From positions 1 to 23,878 of IMG/VR virus record IMGVR_UViG_3300046167_000333: a DNA stretch of 23,878 bases, one strand, 5' to 3'. The notes below the pieces were generated by a model. That model searched no databases, was not told where the DNA came from, and worked only from the letters and a program-made list of their open reading frames with translations. How positions within the stretch are numbered: the stretch's first letter is position 1; every line of letters starts with the position of its first letter. Positions 1,936 to 23,461 of the stretch are shown piece by piece. Origin of the DNA: a virus. The position numbers and the translations under genes are program-made.

Positions 1936-2439
1936 ATGGCAACACTTCGCGACAGATTAAACGCGCTTTTGAGGTATCGCGTAGGTAAGTACGATTCACA
2001 GACCTTGGCGAACGACCTAGGCATCTACGGCACTACGGTAAGCGGTGCGAATATCAACGAGAATACAGCGCTTACAATTTCGACGGTATACGCCTGCGTC
2101 TACAAGATTGCCAGCACCTTGGCCAGCCTAGACCTTGAGGTATATGAGCGCACAGGCCGCGAGATAGAACCGGCGAACGTTCACCCTGCTTATGACGTTA
2201 TCAAATACAAGCCCAACGAATACCAAACGGCGTTCGACTTTTGGGAAACCATTATAAGCAATGCAGTCATTAACGGCGTTGGCTATGCACTGATTGAGCG
2301 CGATGGCCGTGGATACGTTACCAGCCTGATATGCTTGGATATTTACGACGTTGACCGCAAGAACGTGAACGGCCAAATTGTTTACAGCGTGCGAAACGTG
2401 GGCATAGTCCAGCCGGAGAATATGCTTGGAGATTTGTAA
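1936..2439 (+). CDS. Portal protein, N-terminal part (frame broken)
   Basis: Residues 1-167 match the N-terminal half of HK97-type portal proteins: an early stretch of ALTISTVYACVYKIASTLA type, then YDVIKYKPNEYQTAFDFWETI, then a segment ending QPENML. The portal forms the dodecameric ring through which DNA enters the head and to which the tail attaches. The frame stops at 2437-2439, just where portals normally continue with a His-Ile/Leu-Lys/Arg-Gly loop leading to Ser-Pro-Ile. The continuation is in the next frame from about 2426. As it stands this is half a portal; see the entry for 2426-3130. Confidence 0.85.
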   Translation: MATLRDRLNALLRYRVGKYDSQTLANDLGIYGTTVSGANINENTALTISTVYACVYKIASTLASLDLEVYERTGREIEPANVHPAYDVIKYKPNEYQTAFDFWETIISNAVINGVGYALIERDGRGYVTSLICLDIYDVDRKNVNGQIVYSVRNVGIVQPENMLGDL

Positions 2440-3130
2440 TCTTCAAAGAAAGTCACCAATTCGATTGCACCGCGAAAATTTAGGACTAGCCAAAAGCGCC
2501 GAAGACTTTGGCGCGGAGTACTTTGGTAGCGGCGGGCAAATGACGGGGATACTATCCAGCGACCAGCCTTTGAAAAAGGAGCAGATGGATATAATTCAGG
2601 GCAGTTGGAACAAGGCCGCCCAACAGGCTGGCACGAAGCTGCTGCCGTTTGGATTTAAATATTCACGAATTAGCATTAGCCCGGACGAGGCGCAATTTAT
2701 TGAAACGCGTAAATTTCAAGCGGAAGAGATATGCCGCATTTTCAGCGTGCCGCCGACATTGGTACAGCTCGAAAGCCAAACAACATACAACAATGTCGAG
2801 CAGCAAAACCTACAATTCGCACGGCACACGATTGCACCATGGGCCAAGCGTATTGAGCAGGAGATAGATAGGAAGTTAATCCAGTCGCGCGAGCGCCCAC
2901 AGATATATAGCAAATTCAATTTGAACGATTTGTACAGGGGCGATATGCAGAGCCGCGCAGACTTCTACACGAAGATGCTGAACAACGGCGTGCTGAGCAT
3001 TAACGAAGTCAGGGGCAAGGAAGATATGAACCCAACGGACGGAGGCGACACGCACACGGTGCAGGTGAACCAAATCGCGCTGGACCGCCTAGGCAAGTAC
3101 AGCGATAAAGTCAGCAGCGATGGCGTTTAG
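2426..3130 (+). CDS. Portal protein, C-terminal part (frame +1 from the N-terminal half)
   Basis: Continues the portal: SPIRLHRENLGLAKSAEDFG, a following Gly-rich segment, then FQAEEICRIFSVPPTLVQL and the helical NNVEQQNLQFARHTIAPW, all typical of the HK97 portal core and stem. The reading frame is +1 relative to 1936-2439. The only available start is a TTG at 2426, unlikely to be used alone because half a portal could not form the ring. The junction loop (about 8 residues between QPENML and SPI) is shorter than I expect for the family (about 13), so more than one base may have changed. The 3' end overlaps the next gene (ATG 3120). Best treated as one gene, 1936-3130, with a frame break near 2425-2440. 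Confidence 0.85.
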   Translation: MEICNLQRKSPIRLHRENLGLAKSAEDFGAEYFGSGGQMTGILSSDQPLKKEQMDIIQGSWNKAAQQAGTKLLPFGFKYSRISISPDEAQFIETRKFQAEEICRIFSVPPTLVQLESQTTYNNVEQQNLQFARHTIAPWAKRIEQEIDRKLIQSRERPQIYSKFNLNDLYRGDMQSRADFYTKMLNNGVLSINEVRGKEDMNPTDGGDTHTVQVNQIALDRLGKYSDKVSSDGV

Positions 3131-3601: not shown

Positions 3602-5312
3602 CGTCATGCAGGATGATGTACGGTTTTTACTCAATCACACAGGCGCACCTTTGGCACGAACTACAAACGGCACTTTAGAGCTTAGCGTAGATGAACAAGG
3701 CTTAAAGTATCGCGCAGCACTTGCAGACACGCAGGACGGGCGCGACCTTTACAAGCTGATCAAGCGCGGCGATATTACACAAAGTTCGTTCGCTTTTACA
3801 ATTGACTCGGATACGTGGAGCGAGGACCGCAGCACGCGAACAATTACCAAGGTGGGCAAATTATTAGACACGTCGGCGGTTACATACCCAGCCAGCCCGA
3901 CGGCATCAGTCTACGCGCGAAACATGGCAGAGGCGGCGCAGGAAGTGGAGGAATTAAAAGACGAACAGGTAGCAGTTGAACCCGTAGAGGAAAAGCGCGC
4001 AGAACCTGAAACGATAAAAACAGAACCGCGTAACTTTACGCAAAACATTACAAAGATGACTTTAAACGATTTGAAAGGCCAGCGCAATGCGAACTATGAA
4101 GAGTTTGTTGCAATCGGCCAAAAGGCGGACAGAGAGGGCCGCGTTATGACAGAAGCAGAGCAGGAGCGATGCGATAAGCTTGACAGCTTAATGCAAGACC
4201 TTGACGTTAAGATTAAGCACAAAACACGCGAGCAGGATATGGTTGCACGAATGGCGCAGAGCGGTACAGCCGGCGCATCCGAGCAACGCGAAGTTGAGCG
4301 CGTAAATAGTTCTTTCAGCTTAAGCCGTGCAGTAGCTGCCGTTGCCAACGGTCGAAACTTGGAAGGTGCAGAAGCAGAGTGGGCAAGTGAAGCAAGCAAG
4401 GAGGCACGAAGCCAAGGCCTGCAAATGGCTGGACAGATTGCAATTCCTTCAGTGGCTTTGCGTGCTGGAGCTGCTGACGACTTCCAAGCAGGAAGCGGCG
4501 ACGGTTCAGGATTTGTTCCAACTGTTGTACCTGCTGCAATCGAAGCACTGCGCGCGCCTACCGTATTGGAAGGACTCGGCACAACAGTAATTCGAAACGC
4601 TACAGGTAACTTGCAGTTTCCACGTGTAAGCGCTAAGGCCGCAGGTACAGGTGAAACAGAAGTTTCAGCCGATGCAGGTTCAGGCATGGAAATGGATGAC
4701 GTTACTTTGTCACCGCAACGAGTTGCAGCCAACACCAAGTACAGCAAGCAATTGATTTTGCAGGGCGGTGCAGAGGTAGATGCTTTGATTGCTAACGAAT
4801 TGGCCGCAGCTATGAACGCCTATGTTGATACAACAGCCTTCGCCGCTATCATGGCATCGACTGCTGTAAACCAGTCGAATGTTGCTGATGGCGCTTTGAC
4901 TGCTGCAATGGTTAACCTGATGGAAACGGACGCACTTGCAGAGGGTGCAAACCTTGCAGGCGCTTCGTACGTTATGAGCGCAGGCGCTTACGGCCTTTCA
5001 AAGGCATTGGCGCAGGTTGCGAACGTTAACCCACTTTGGGAGAATGGCCGCTTCAATATGTACAACGCCGTTGCTACGCCATACCTCGCTAACGGATTTT
5101 TAGAGGACGGAACAACAGCAGCAGCGGGAGCGCTTTGCTTTGGTAACTTCCAACAGGGCGGAATCCTTGCCTACTTTGGTGGCATTGATTTGCTAGTTGA
5201 CCCGTACAGCGACGCAGGCACTGCACAAATTGCATTGCACGTGAACCGATTCTTCGACTTCGATTTGCGACAGCCAAAAGCGTTGTCCATTGCGAAGCAC
5301 TTGAATGCTTGA
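3585..5312 (+). CDS. Prohead protease-major capsid protein fusion (HK97 fold)
   Basis: Residues 1-110 are the body of an S78 prohead protease. His18 (in LLNHTG) and a Ser at 67/68 (in TQSSFAF) match the catalytic His and Ser; the protein is missing its usual first 50 or so residues because of the frame break at 3595. A charged linker (about 115-155) leads without a stop into a scaffold-like coiled segment (about 158-215, LNDLKGQRNANYEEF onwards) and then the HK97 capsid domain: FVPTVVPAAIEALRAPTVLE, AGTGETEVSADAGSG and a C-terminal LHVNRFFDFDLRQPKAL. In separate-gene phages these are two proteins. An in-frame ATG at 4056 could start an unfused capsid protein of 418 residues. The expected product is the shell subunit, with the protease freed during maturation. 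Confidence 0.9.
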   Translation: MARFDDVMQDDVRFLLNHTGAPLARTTNGTLELSVDEQGLKYRAALADTQDGRDLYKLIKRGDITQSSFAFTIDSDTWSEDRSTRTITKVGKLLDTSAVTYPASPTASVYARNMAEAAQEVEELKDEQVAVEPVEEKRAEPETIKTEPRNFTQNITKMTLNDLKGQRNANYEEFVAIGQKADREGRVMTEAEQERCDKLDSLMQDLDVKIKHKTREQDMVARMAQSGTAGASEQREVERVNSSFSLSRAVAAVANGRNLEGAEAEWASEASKEARSQGLQMAGQIAIPSVALRAGAADDFQAGSGDGSGFVPTVVPAAIEALRAPTVLEGLGTTVIRNATGNLQFPRVSAKAAGTGETEVSADAGSGMEMDDVTLSPQRVAANTKYSKQLILQGGAEVDALIANELAAAMNAYVDTTAFAAIMASTAVNQSNVADGALTAAMVNLMETDALAEGANLAGASYVMSAGAYGLSKALAQVANVNPLWENGRFNMYNAVATPYLANGFLEDGTTAAAGALCFGNFQQGGILAYFGGIDLLVDPYSDAGTAQIALHVNRFFDFDLRQPKALSIAKHLNA

Positions 5313-5335
5313 TTTGGTTAGGTTATAGTTTGGTG

Positions 5336-5364
5336 AAAGGGGGGCTTCGGCCCCTCTTTTTTTT
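5336..5364 (+). terminator. Rho-independent terminator after the capsid gene
   Basis: A GGGGC-TTCG-GCCCC hairpin at 5341-5354, extended by A-T and G-T pairs, is followed by a run of T to 5364. It lies 24 nt after the capsid stop and should end much of the head-operon transcription. Confidence 0.88.
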
Positions 5365-5426
5365 GTCCTGTAACCCCAGTAAACAAAGGGTAAACCAAAA
5401 AACATTTAAAATAAATACGAAAAAAC

Positions 5427-5458
5427 TTGCGTAGAAAGAAAAGGTTACCGTATCTTTG
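5427..5458 (+). promoter_or_regulatory. Bacteroidota-type promoter of the small-gene cassette
   Basis: TTG at 5427-5429 and a perfect -7 box TATCTTTG at 5451-5458, spaced 21 nt (19-20 is usual). The upstream part, TACGAAAAAACTTGCGTA at 5416-5433, is 17/18 identical to the promoter at 18076-18093. The predicted start of transcription, about 5463-5465, leaves a leader of about 25 nt before the ATG at 5490. Confidence 0.75.
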
Positions 5459-5489
5459 AGACATCAAACGAAACAAAAACAGAGCAATC

Positions 5490-5729
5490 ATGACAACAGC
5501 ATTCGGAAATATTAAATTTACAAAGACGATACCGCAGGGTGGTGATGGCTGTTACGAATGGCTTGGCGAGAATGTTCGAATTTACAGAACGGGCGGGATT
5601 GATTGCCGAGGACATTTTACATACAACCTCGGAAGTTATGAGGTCGAAGTAAAAAATAATGTAATGGCTACCGATATAAAAACGCTAAAGGCAGCTAAAG
5701 AGGTCGCTATATACTATGCATCAAAGTAA
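5490..5729 (+). CDS. Small unknown protein of a moron-like cassette
   Basis: A 79-residue soluble protein beginning MTTAFGNIKFTKTI, with aromatic and Gly-rich stretches (YEWLGENVRIYRTGG) and a Lys/Ala-rich C-terminus. I do not recognise the family. It has its own promoter and sits between two terminators, inside an otherwise structural gene block, which suggests expression independent of head and tail genes. Accessory genes placed this way (morons) often change host phenotype or counter defences, but nothing in the sequence shows which. Its stop overlaps the start of a 27-codon reading frame at 5716. Confidence 0.72.
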   Translation: MTTAFGNIKFTKTIPQGGDGCYEWLGENVRIYRTGGIDCRGHFTYNLGSYEVEVKNNVMATDIKTLKAAKEVAIYYASK

Positions 5730-5799
5730 AAACGAGCCCGAATGGTTTCAAGAGGTGCTTGACCGCACCGAACAAACCGAATCCTTCCTCCTGTCTTAA
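5716..5799 (+). CDS. 27-residue acidic peptide
   Basis: ATG at 5716 overlaps the previous gene by 14 nt; the frame reads MHQSKNEPEWFQEVLDRTEQ and ends in a Phe-Leu-Leu-Ser tail at the stop 5797-5799. The stop lies 1 nt before the terminator hairpin, so this frame fills the cassette exactly. The same arrangement (small gene followed by an overlapping short acidic frame) recurs at 18121-18455. It may be a real peptide or chance. Confidence 0.45.
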   Translation: MHQSKNEPEWFQEVLDRTEQTESFLLS

Positions 5800-5800
5800 C

Positions 5801-5824
5801 AGCCCCTCACGGGGCTTTTTTTTT
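5801..5824 (+). terminator. Rho-independent terminator closing the small-gene cassette
   Basis: AGCCCC (5801-5806), loop TCAC, GGGGCT (5811-5816), then a T run to 5824. It is 1 nt past the stop of the 27-residue frame and 18 nt before the next structural gene. Confidence 0.9.
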
Positions 5825-5841
5825 AGCCGTATTTTAGCGAC

Positions 5842-6405
5842 ATGATGACCGTAGAAATAACAGGCGCGCCCGACCTCGACAGCATTATAACCGTGGCACA
5901 GCTAAAGGAGCATTTGCGAGTAGACCACACAGACGAAGACACGTTAATCGAGGCGCTGAGAGATGCAGCAATAGCGTGGATTGAAGACGTATGTAATACG
6001 CGCCTTGGCGATGTTGACGCCGTTGGTTACATCGATTACTTTTACAACGTTCGTTTTCCAATCGGCCCGGTTAACTCCATTGCATCCGTGACGTATTTGG
6101 ACACGGCAAACGCAACGCAAACGCTGCCAGCCGCTAAATATTGGTTTGACATAAAAACCAAAAGCGCGCGCATTACGTTCGACAATACGCCCGACCTATA
6201 CGACGACACTTTTAACGCGGTGCAGGTGAATATGAACGTCGGTTATCCGGAGGCCGATATTCCACAGCCGCTTGTTCATGGCATTCGTTTGCTGGTTGGT
6301 CATCTCTACGAAAACAGGCAAACCGTAACCGCGCACAAAATGCACGAATTGCCGTTAGGTATTTATAGCATCATTTCACCATATAGAAACGTTACAAGCG
6401 TATGA
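5842..6405 (+). CDS. Head-tail connector (gp6-like / phiE125 gp8 family)
   Basis: A 187-residue protein with the connector signature: ITVAQLKEHLRVDHTDEDTL near the start, followed by an Ala-rich helix (IEALRDAAIAWIEDVC), a PIGPVNSIASVTYLD strand pair, and a C-terminal VHGIRLLVGHLYENRQ helix. These proteins form the ring beneath the portal that prepares the head for tail joining. The first ATG (5842) is chosen over the immediately following one because it sits 4 nt after a TATTTTAG box (5830-5837). It overlaps the next gene by 4 nt (ATGA), typical of translational coupling. Confidence 0.88.
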   Translation: MMTVEITGAPDLDSIITVAQLKEHLRVDHTDEDTLIEALRDAAIAWIEDVCNTRLGDVDAVGYIDYFYNVRFPIGPVNSIASVTYLDTANATQTLPAAKYWFDIKTKSARITFDNTPDLYDDTFNAVQVNMNVGYPEADIPQPLVHGIRLLVGHLYENRQTVTAHKMHELPLGIYSIISPYRNVTSV

Positions 6406-18049: not shown

Positions 18050-18086
18050 GTGCCCTAAAAAAAATCAAAGTTTTTTACGAAAAAGC

Positions 18087-18116
18087 TTGCGTAACGAAAT
18101 AAGTTGCGTATCTTTA
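18087..18116 (+). promoter_or_regulatory. Promoter of the replication (early) operon
   Basis: TTG at 18087-18089, exactly 19 nt, then TATCTTTA at 18109-18116 (one mismatch to TAnnTTTG). The 18 nt at 18076-18093 match the cassette promoter at 5416-5433 at 17 positions. CAGC separates the -7 box from the ATG at 18121, so transcripts should be leaderless or nearly so. Confidence 0.78.
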
Positions 18117-18120
18117 CAGC

Positions 18121-18342
18121 ATGACAAACGCAAACAACACTACAGCAAACGAACGGAAGAGCATTCAACGAATCATTCAAGGCGGTTACGTTGGACAAGA
18201 TTGCAAGATTGGACGCACTTCGTACCGAGTGACAAAAAACAAAGCAGGATATGAAGTAAAAATCGGTAAGCAGACACGCGGACTCGGTTTTTATGGTGAG
18301 CCATTGCGATTTACTGTGCGAACAATACAAGTTGGATTGTAA
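18121..18342 (+). CDS. Small basic protein, first gene of the early operon
   Basis: A 73-residue, Lys/Arg-rich protein: MTNANNTTANERKSIQRIIQ, then VGQDCKIGRTSYRVTKNKAG and a strand-rich C-terminus. Not recognised. As the first early gene directly behind a strong promoter it may act on host processes or DNA. It loosely resembles the moron-cassette protein (5490-5729) in size, an MT-x-A-type start and a GYEV/SYEV segment, too weak to claim homology. The stop overlaps the next ATG (18342). Confidence 0.7.
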   Translation: MTNANNTTANERKSIQRIIQGGYVGQDCKIGRTSYRVTKNKAGYEVKIGKQTRGLGFYGEPLRFTVRTIQVGL

Positions 18343-18455: not shown

Positions 18456-18601
18456 ACAAACCTATTTGCGTGCGCTCTAGCGTACAAGTAACAGCCCCGA
18501 CGTCATTTAATCAATGGCAGCAAGACCTAGCCGATGAGCGCGAGTTTTTGCGCCTAATTGACAAAATGAAAATGCACCTAAAGCAAAACCGAGAAAAATG
18601 A
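18452..18601 (+). CDS. 49-residue unknown protein
   Basis: ATG at 18452 overlaps the previous stop (ATGA); the frame reads MNKPICVRSSVQVTAPTSFN and then a helix, DLADEREFLRLIDKMKMHLK, ending at 18599-18601, overlapping the following ATG at 18598. Unknown. The coupled overlaps on both sides and the strong helix pattern are the reasons for keeping it. Confidence 0.6.
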   Translation: MNKPICVRSSVQVTAPTSFNQWQQDLADEREFLRLIDKMKMHLKQNREK

Positions 18602-18972
18602 GTAACACCGATGAACTTCGGGCGCTGTCTGCGAAATACGATATGCACCCAGACCATTTCCACAAAGACCCGCGCGGCTTCGTCATTATGACGCGCAGAG
18701 GCGTCGAGCATTTACAAGCCAAAATAAAGGCCACAGTGCGCTTTTCTACCGTAGCGGAATACTCAGACCCAAAGGAGGGGAGATATTGCATTAAAGCCTA
18801 CGCAAAATGCGAAATAGGGCAAGTAGAAACGTTTGGTGAAAGCAGCAAAGCAAACAACCGCAACGCTTACCCGATTGCCATGGCTGAAAAACGGGCTTTA
18901 TCGCGTGCCATTTTGAAGCTCGCAGGCTTTTACACTGCTGGCGTATATGGCGAAGACGAAATTGACGAATGA
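18598..18972 (+). CDS. Conserved phage recombination/replication-module protein
   Basis: A 124-residue protein: HFHKDPRGFVIMTRRGVEHL, then KAYAKCEIGQVETFGESSKA and ANNRNAYPIAMAEKRALSRA, with a C-terminal GEDEIDE. The AEKRALSRAxLKL helix is typical of proteins beside SSB and recombinases in Bacteroidota phages and resembles the end of single-strand-annealing proteins. I do not know an experimentally proven function. Position before the SSB-like gene supports a role in DNA metabolism. It overlaps both neighbours by 4 nt. Confidence 0.75.
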   Translation: MSNTDELRALSAKYDMHPDHFHKDPRGFVIMTRRGVEHLQAKIKATVRFSTVAEYSDPKEGRYCIKAYAKCEIGQVETFGESSKANNRNAYPIAMAEKRALSRAILKLAGFYTAGVYGEDEIDE

Positions 18973-19244
18973 ACCTCGACGAATTCTTTGACAGCGTAGA
19001 GGCTGACCAAGCCGCACACGTGGAAGACGTCAAGGACTACGCTTTGCACTTGCTCAGCACGTCCACAATGAAGGACGACGATGACGGGTTAGAGGATGAA
19101 ATAATAGACACAGACCCAACGCCAAGCCGCTGGCGTGAGATATTCGAGCGGCTACGATTAAACCAGTTGCGTGCAATCGACTTGCCTAACTGTTCACAAA
19201 CTGAATTCACTAAATCTTATAAAAAACATGGAATTAATAATTGA
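18969..19244 (+). CDS. Acidic unknown protein of the replication module
   Basis: A 91-residue protein, MNLDEFFDSVEADQAAHVED with an acidic middle (DDDDGLEDEIIDTDPTP) and then RWREIFERLRLNQLRAIDLP and a basic end. Not recognised. It lies between the annealing-type protein and the SSB, overlapping both by a few to 17 nt. The WREIFERLR helix is the only clear structural feature. Confidence 0.65.
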   Translation: MNLDEFFDSVEADQAAHVEDVKDYALHLLSTSTMKDDDDGLEDEIIDTDPTPSRWREIFERLRLNQLRAIDLPNCSQTEFTKSYKKHGINN

Positions 19245-19575
19245 GGGAGTTATTAAGCGCGTTTGTAAACCGATGGAATTTGAAAGCGGCTTCAGGAAGT
19301 GCGAAGTGCACGTTGAAATCCAAGATGGAAAATATCCGCAGACTTTGGCGCTGGAGTTTCTGAAAGACGACGTAGACGAAGCCGTAGCATTGCCAGAAGG
19401 CAAGACAATCAAAGCCCGGTGCAACGTACGCGGCAGCGAATGGCAAAAGGACGACACGCAGCCGATGCGCGTATTCATGTCTTTAGTGCCTTGGAAGTAT
19501 GAAATTTTAGAAGCTGGAGCGCAGCCAGCACCAACCCAACAACCTGCAAAAGATGGCGGAAATTTCCCTTTCTGA
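19228..19575 (+). CDS. Single-strand DNA-binding-like protein (DUF3127 type)
   Basis: 115 residues from the ATG at 19228, which is chosen over an upstream GTG because the product then starts directly with the OB-fold strand MELIIEGVIKRVCKPM. The pattern FRKCEVHVEIQDGKYPQTLA, LEFLKDD, and an RCNVRGSEWQ strand is that of the DUF3127 family, found mainly in Bacteroidota and thought to be an SSB-like OB fold. The end, GGNFPF, resembles the acidic/hydrophobic tip of SSB proteins that recruits partners. It likely coats ssDNA during phage replication. Confidence 0.82.
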   Translation: MELIIEGVIKRVCKPMEFESGFRKCEVHVEIQDGKYPQTLALEFLKDDVDEAVALPEGKTIKARCNVRGSEWQKDDTQPMRVFMSLVPWKYEILEAGAQPAPTQQPAKDGGNFPF

Positions 19576-22636: not shown

Positions 22637-23016
22637 CACCGATAGAGCAATTTTGGGCGGACCTGATGGATTCACGCCGCTACGCTATAACAGAAGTTTA
22701 CGGCGCGGAATGTGCAAGCCGTTACAGGCCGCATCCGCAAGAACGCGAATACTTCATAAACAACAAAGGGACATTTTCAGAACATCCCGACGTAACCGAA
22801 CACACAAAAGCGTTTTGGGTGATGTGCGAAACGCATTACACCACAGAGCGCGAGGCGTACCGTACCAAACTACGGGCCAACTGGCACAAGGTGCAGCAAT
22901 CCACCGAATACAAGAACCGCAAACGTGAACGCGAAATGCTAAAGGATTACATTAGCGACGCAATTAACGGGAATGCCAAAGAAACGAACGCACGCACAGG
23001 AGAAGAAAAAGGTTGA
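22633..23016 (+). CDS. Unknown charged protein upstream of NinG
   Basis: A 127-residue, strongly charged protein: MTPIEQFWADLMDSRRYAIT, then HTKAFWVMCETHYTTEREAY and a Lys/Arg/Glu-rich helical tail. Not recognised. It starts 4 nt inside the methylase stop and its end overlaps ninG by 44 nt, so it is part of the same translational string. No catalytic motif noted. Confidence 0.65.
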   Translation: MTPIEQFWADLMDSRRYAITEVYGAECASRYRPHPQEREYFINNKGTFSEHPDVTEHTKAFWVMCETHYTTEREAYRTKLRANWHKVQQSTEYKNRKREREMLKDYISDAINGNAKETNARTGEEKG

Positions 23017-23461
23017 TGAATGGTTCAGCAAATACACCCGGTGGAAAGCGGCAGACGCAGAAGGCAACTGTACTTGTTACACCTGCAACCGAGTGTATCA
23101 CGCATCAAAGATTCAAGCCGGGCACTTCCTTAGCCGACGATTCGCAGCAACTCGGTGGAACGAAGCTAACGTTAAGCCGCAATGCTATGCCTGCAATATT
23201 CTCAGAAGCGGAGAACAGTGGTTATATGGCTGCCGTATTGAAAGCGAAAACCCCGGAACAACTGCGCAGCTTATGCGAGAAGCGGACGAAGGAAGAAAGT
23301 ACACGATACGCGAGCTACGAAACTTACATGACCATTATAGGACAAAGGCCCTGCAATTTGCAGAAGCCAAAGACGTACAGCCTAAGCCCACAGGAACGGA
23401 TAAAGTTCGACGAGCTAAGAAAGGCAAGGCTCGACCTGTTAAACGTGAACATGGTAAGTAA
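22973..23461 (+). CDS. ninG: NinG/Rap-like recombination protein
   Basis: A 162-residue protein with the NinG zinc-binding pattern: CYTC (C35, C38), AGHFLSR with His51, and CYAC (C71, C74), then IRELRNLHDHYRTKAL. Lambda NinG (Rap) is a structure-specific endonuclease cutting branched recombination intermediates. Its basic tail (about 132-162, rich in Lys/Arg) lies beyond the family core. Position after the methylase and before the HNH endonuclease matches the distal early region of many phages. Confidence 0.85.
   Translation: MPKKRTHAQEKKKVDEWFSKYTRWKAADAEGNCTCYTCNRVYHASKIQAGHFLSRRFAATRWNEANVKPQCYACNILRSGEQWLYGCRIESENPGTTAQLMREADEGRKYTIRELRNLHDHYRTKALQFAEAKDVQPKPTGTDKVRRAKKGKARPVKREHGK

Follow-up and report, generated by a model that had tools for sequence, protein, structure and literature searches.

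In the genome of a small siphovirus-type phage with an HK97-type capsid, the capsid gene ends at position 5312 and the connector gene starts at 5842, and the region between them raises the question of what kind of unit stands within a structural operon, how it is exchanged and what its genes might do. The stretch analysed, termed the window, is a virus record of 23,878 bases that contains terminase, portal, fused protease-capsid, connector and head-completion genes according to Pfam and PHROG matches, with HK97-type capsid, Phage_connect_1 and Phage_HCP matched in Pfam. The promoter type of the phage points to a host among the Bacteroidota. Rfam gave no match at gathering level and no tRNA was found. 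The portal gene (1936-3130) is split over two frames in the record; as it occupies one open frame in 89 of 92 loci from relatives that contain the two halves (overlapping loci counted separately), the window copy is broken or misread.

An initial annotation had described 5313-5841 as a self-contained, moron-like unit of terminator, promoter, 79-codon gene, overlapping 27-codon frame and second terminator, and had suggested host takeover, counter-defence or a lysogenic benefit as its role. All of these parts are present where they had been placed, and the lysogenic benefit finds no support, as a Pfam scan of 26 ORFs of the window revealed no integrase or other recombinase. PeSL (promoter-early stem-loop) cassettes were reportedly described from T4-like phages by Arbiol in 2010 and Comeau in 2014. 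We consider it probable, on the comparisons given below, that the region between capsid and connector genes is a fixed slot holding a moron-like and PeSL-like mobile early-gene cassette, which would be exchanged by recombination at its leader and terminator.

Anatomy of the cassette

The insert covers 5369-5828 (460 nt) and is composed of a promoter head, a -7 box, an A-rich leader, the 79-codon gene, the overlapping 27-codon frame and a terminator, all on the forward strand. The terminator preceding it, which folds into a stem at 5335-5360 with a T run to 5364 (-18.4 kcal/mol, z -3.80) and is followed by GTCC (5335-5368 in total), stands in the empty relatives listed and is therefore assigned to the backbone, namely to the capsid gene. 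Promoter, genes and second terminator of the proposed self-contained unit thus hold, whereas its first terminator lies outside the cassette; the left edge of the insert is TTTTTTTTGTCC (5357-5368).

The lineage-specific promoter head (5369-5450, 33% GC) is found again in occupied relatives and is related to promoter regions of early operons. It leads to the -7 box TATCTTTG (5451-5458), which is of the Bacteroidota TAnnTTTG type (consensus in a part of PMC6847099) and has a TTG upstream at 5427-5429 with a spacer of 21 nt. The unstructured, A-rich leader (5459-5489) is common to other cassettes and to a second phage lineage and is the candidate left exchange handle; the candidate right handle is the cassette terminator (5801-5828), consisting of the 24-nt AGCCCCTCACGGGGCTTTTTTTTT and AGCC at the right edge of the insert, with a stem at 5801-5816 and nine T residues to 5824 (-11.3 kcal/mol, z -3.75).

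An inverted repeat is present in cassette heads of the window (5367-5390) and of relatives, upstream of several promoters, and differs between lineages (CCCTG..CAGGG, CCCTT..AAGGG, CCTTG..CAAGG). It may serve as an operator and is weak in the window, where it is poor and folds like shuffled sequences (z 0.19), so that it was dropped from the explanation.

The motif TAnnTTTG occurs 11 times on both strands of the window, four times with an upstream TTG at 18-24 nt, so that the -7 box alone is no evidence. A generic terminator scan found five candidates in the window versus 4.5 in shuffles, and a strict definition (perfect stem with at least five G/C, T run of at least seven) found one versus none in 100 Markov shuffles. 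Promoter-like and generic terminator-like scans by themselves are near chance, and the case is carried by the comparison with relatives: what lifts it above chance is the exact empty site, the repeated association of head, leader and terminator with other genes, and the codon-position bias in the 79-codon frame.

Empty and occupied capsid-connector sites

Relatives, all of them uncultured contigs, were fetched with the capsid and connector proteins and not with the cassette, so that occupancy was not selected for, except in the window itself. Both neighbours were found in 118 loci, many of which are overlapping stretches of one contig, and removal of repeats left 74 distinct sites. The site is empty in 59 of these (gap of 59-73 nt) and occupied in 15 (366-965 nt). 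The view of the region as an independent accessory unit is borne out by this absence from most relatives; conservation in all of them, named beforehand as the contrary outcome, was not found. In empty sites the capsid stop is followed by a hairpin with T run, mostly GTCC, GTATTTTAGCGAC or a close variant, and the connector start.

Among sites with at least 85% capsid identity, 31 are empty and five occupied. On a capsid tree of 73 rows, from which the distant L068 was left out, occupancy requires 14 changes for 15 occupied rows, compared with a mean of 13.9 for shuffled labels (343 of 500 shuffles were as low), and the well-supported branches force at least ten changes. Occupancy is unclustered on the capsid tree, and by this measure the slot turns over fast.

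In the inserts, small genes that are for the most part unrelated are enclosed by similar heads and almost identical terminators. TTTGAGACATCAAACGAA is exact in eight of the 15 heads, which were extracted by position and -7 box and not by leader, and one locus (L039) carries two units in tandem, the first gene of which is related to that of L114 while the second is the same as that of L058. The exact leader 23-mer occurs in 48 viral stretches and nowhere in genome_contigs; the exact 24-nt terminator occurs in 43 viral stretches. Over all loci examined, the latter amounts to 35 distinct places, namely 16 in the capsid-connector slot, 18 in a terminase slot described below and one inside the L039 tandem; in L288 and L291 it stands at the capsid-connector slot with a variant flank.

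The 79-codon gene and the 27-codon frame

The 79-codon gene (5490-5729) had been called unrecognisable, and its protein indeed has no Pfam, PHROG or PADLOC match and none among annotated phages, but a single full-length homologue exists in L001, which belongs to the second lineage. The two genes differ at 12, 10 and 29 first, second and third codon positions, respectively, corresponding to a dN of 0.170 and a dS of 0.690 (NG86). The gene is evidently under purifying selection, and the dN/dS of about 0.25 points to a working protein. A short peptide-pattern search, which could miss remote relatives, found none in genome_contigs. L002 was rejected as a homologue, the match covering only 15 residues within a different protein, and the AlphaFold2 model, built on a two-row alignment, is poor (mean pLDDT 44.9).

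For the 45 cassette proteins compared with Pfam, PHROGs and PADLOC, no confident function was obtained (PADLOC 0 of 45); the best matches were a TrmB-type HTH in one protein (5.8e-4) and PHROGs without assigned function. A near-DNA search of annotated phages yielded short terminator-like pieces only (best 20 of 85 records).

The 27-codon frame (5716-5799) overlaps the 79-codon ORF by 14 nt and encodes the recurrent peptide NEPEWFQEVLDRT. Its EPEWFQ motif was found in 20 distinct contexts, preceded by lead genes of ten or more kinds and mostly forming a free peptide immediately 5' of the terminator; this recurrence rules out a chance overlap. The residues are nearly constant across 17 DNA variants, although this conservation was partly selected for, as some of the loci were found by peptide pattern, and the peptide is therefore probably translated. 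Both frames look translated, the longer one by its codon-position bias and the shorter one by its DNA variants.

In L147, L170, L189 and L197 the frame with the EPEWFQ start is longer or ends differently; as L170, L189 and L197 are early regions, the peptide may be the retained start of the second early gene. In L147 (reverse strand, from about 700), a terminase-slot cassette continues without terminator into early-operon-like genes, a long EPEWFQ frame followed by a SHSQEENW frame; this is either a real crossover between slots via a shared gene or an assembly chimera.

A second lineage and a common gene pool

The second lineage, which includes L001, has a Terminase_3 large subunit unrelated to the terminase of the window (BLASTP E 0.072). 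In this lineage the slot separates the terminase gene from the gene after it, and at least 62 distinct gaps were counted there, at least ten of them of 130 nt or less and at least 52 of 300 nt or more, a count biased to occupied sites because the loci were partly fetched by leader or peptide. None of the 13 records with the second-lineage terminase contains the window's capsid gene; one of them, a 40-kb contig, contains the window's RecT-like gene.

That contig (40,311 bases; L170, L217 and L304) combines the second-lineage terminase with an early region like that of the window, including a 97% identical RecT-like gene, and carries two copies of an MNYSIQQ gene in different slots; it is either a recombinant or a chimera. 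A further slot is formed by a similar unit directly upstream of the second-lineage terminase gene in L149 (reverse strand, about 1928) and L185 (reverse strand, about 9141). In the distant relative L241, a gap of 1846 nt 3' of the terminase gene is occupied by at least five consecutive small ORFs, which may be an array of such cassettes.

The gene pool was sampled in 95 regions, comprising 19 from the capsid slot, 53 from the terminase slot, two from upstream of the terminase gene, 19 from the early slot and two other early ones. They contain 108 ORFs of 40 codons or more, with a median length of 70 residues, which fall into 58 families, 13 of them shared by two or more sites. Before clustering, a pattern filter had taken out adjacent holin-like ORFs along with a few that were considered spurious or that overlapped the peptide; some of those kept may be spurious. 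Of the 17 capsid-slot families, eight also occur in the terminase lineage and two in the early slot. A cassette that is absent or replaced in most close relatives and present in an unrelated lineage looks like a member of a common pool of interchangeable small genes. Membership in such a large set, common to another phage lineage, could not be seen by the initial annotation.

Six cross-lineage pairs were aligned in parts. In five, DNA identity is 0.86-0.97 in the gene, 0.81-1.00 in the stretch to the terminator end and 0.64-0.97 in the leader; in the flanks it is 0.33-0.48 from -120 to -40, 0.50-0.64 in the 40 nt before the -7 box and 0.44-0.50 in the 80 nt past the terminator. The sixth pair (L122/L187) is remote, with 0.49 in the gene and 0.22 in the 3' stretch. 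Between the window and L001 the values are 0.47 upstream, 0.65 in the -40 region, 0.95 in the leader, 0.78 in the gene and 0.44 downstream, homology stopping with the gene and not at the terminator. Homology hence declines close to the leader on the left side, and on the right side it does so, in most pairs, at the T run of the terminator; the exchanged block would then be the leader, the gene and usually the terminator, placed under a resident promoter. Within the contigs compared, these data show a unit that is either present or cleanly absent, an interchangeable gene and the movement of genes between two lineages with unrelated terminases.

Small units that replace one another, insert exactly and form tandem arrays would also be expected if an integron-like or transposon-like cassette were moved by a dedicated recombinase. 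We regard this explanation as very unlikely: no recombinase is encoded in the cassettes or among the 26 scanned ORFs of the window, and the common ends are the functional promoter leader and the terminator, near which homology breaks, rather than a separate site.

The link to the early operon

The putative early operon of the window opens between the holin-like and RecT-like genes, and its promoter region (18053-18120, forward strand) is related to the cassette head, an HMM of which matches at 18053-18122. The first early gene (18121-18342, forward strand, 73 aa) belongs to the same pool, being 82% identical to a terminase-slot gene of L149. At E<0.01 the head HMM matches early promoter regions in 14 of 18 sequences and gives no match in the early heads of L274, L280, L283 and L285. 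The first early gene is variable, and those of L270/L275, L272 and L278/L279 have matches among the genes from other slots. The likeness of the head to the phage's early promoter suggests early expression of the cassette; together with the common pool, the simplest assumption is an early gene behind a relative of the early promoter, the timing being inferred. The cassette promoter would be early and recognised by the host, so that the gene would be made soon after entry, and the two terminators would shield it from the late genes.

The composition of the 79-codon gene (GC 0.404, GC3 0.362) departs from that of its neighbours (0.514 and 0.482) and of the window (0.480), and this low GC, the promoter-gene-terminator layout and the absence in relatives would suit a classical moron, i.e. 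a foreign gene that arrived from host or plasmid DNA in a single event of illegitimate recombination, bringing its own promoter and terminator but no common exchange ends. The early gene at 18121 is, however, similarly low (0.428, GC3 0.365), the 79-codon gene lacks a relative in genome_contigs, unrelated genes at this position are enclosed by recurring heads and terminators, and the tandem and the common families already suggest repeated exchange via the same ends, so that a one-time acquisition appears unlikely.

The position next to the capsid gene might also indicate a late capsid decoration or stability factor whose own promoter is incidental, and a section of PMC4378225 names decoration proteins among morons. 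Such a virion role is highly improbable, as the same gene lies 3' of the terminase gene in L001, other pool families come first in the early operon, and the slot takes unrelated genes, including the HTH-like one mentioned above. The gene is small, stands behind an early-type promoter, turns over rapidly and is replaced by unrelated genes, which makes it rather likely that the 79-residue protein acts on the host, in takeover or counter-defence.

Possible mode of exchange

The preferred reading, a mobile early-gene cassette in a fixed slot, would involve ordinary or annealing-type recombination in the short leader and terminator stretches, and annealing-type exchange at these two places is plausible. 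It might be assisted by proteins of the phage itself, namely a weakly RecT-like, possible annealing protein (18598-18972, forward strand; PF03837 E 0.0083, below its cut-off), an SSB-like protein (19171-19575, forward strand; phrog_4932 E 2.2e-15) and a NinG/Rap junction endonuclease-like protein (22973-23461, forward strand; phrog_5034 E 2.9e-17). Translation alone could also keep the leader, which is unstructured and A-rich, as is favoured for translation in Bacteroidota (PMC6847099, in part).

More tentatively, and with a likelihood a little short of even, two lineages with unrelated terminases may maintain permanent gene ports, in which resident promoters are followed by short common stretches of leader and terminator that serve as integrase-free recombination handles, and through which a community-wide pool of small early genes is traded between virion operon, terminase region and early operon. 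Their hosts would probably be overlapping Bacteroidota, and NEPEWFQ would be the retained start of the second early gene and a functional element carried along with the unit.

With candidate target sequences in view, exact empty sites and genes that can be traced between unrelated backbones, the exchange mechanism can be put to the test. The slots also offer a way of gathering candidate takeover and counter-defence genes of Bacteroidota phages from sequence alone, at present 58 small families.

Comparison with known systems

Integron gene cassettes are interchangeable small genes that form tandem units. The cassettes described here share both properties and differ in the lack of an integrase among the 26 ORFs of the window and in each unit having its own promoter and terminator.

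SAS/ESAS elements of Cluster K mycobacteriophages are, according to portions of PMC3203893, short conserved sequences that precede numerous variable small genes and in some cases include an inverted repeat; they are tied to start sites and stay with their gene families. A conserved short sequence 5' of many variable small genes is likewise found here; in contrast, -7 box, leader and terminator are common to the cassettes, and unrelated genes are swapped under the same head.

Morons are defined in parts of PMC4378225 and PMC1524935 as coding units with promoter and terminator, of deviating composition, between genes that are adjacent in related phages. A further trait of morons is expression of their own, in some cases from a prophage. 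The cassette resembles them in its coding regions between a predicted promoter and terminator and in its insertion between two genes adjacent in relatives (59 of 74 sites empty). It differs in recurring ends, tandem units, quick exchange and a common pool, and the 26 ORFs give no sign of lysogeny such as an integrase. An excerpt of PMC4378225 calls the acquisition of morons and variable phage genes mysterious, no common target sequence having been found.

In PeSL cassettes, as outlined in part of PMC4503421, an early promoter and a stem-loop adjoin small variable genes of T4-like phages and are taken to mediate their shuffling. Here, too, a promoter of early type (head related to early regions in 14 of 18 sequences, timing inferred) and a stem-loop terminator stand by small variable genes, which are shuffled between copies, as judged from the breakpoints and from the 13 families, out of 58, that occupy two or more sites. 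Unlike PeSL, the cassette does not occur in a T4-like myovirus with the PeSL motif but in a phage with HK97-type capsid, Phage_connect_1, Phage_HCP and a Bacteroidota-type -7 box, and the units are common to lineages with unrelated terminases and occupy slots in virion, terminase and early operons. A search of the open-licence PMC literature, which is no proof of absence, returned no description of such cassettes in Bacteroidota phages; as far as this literature shows, it is new that lineages with unrelated terminases share such units and that one pool serves several slots. By its predicted elements, the cassette fits the moron definition in layout and works like PeSL without being a member of that class.
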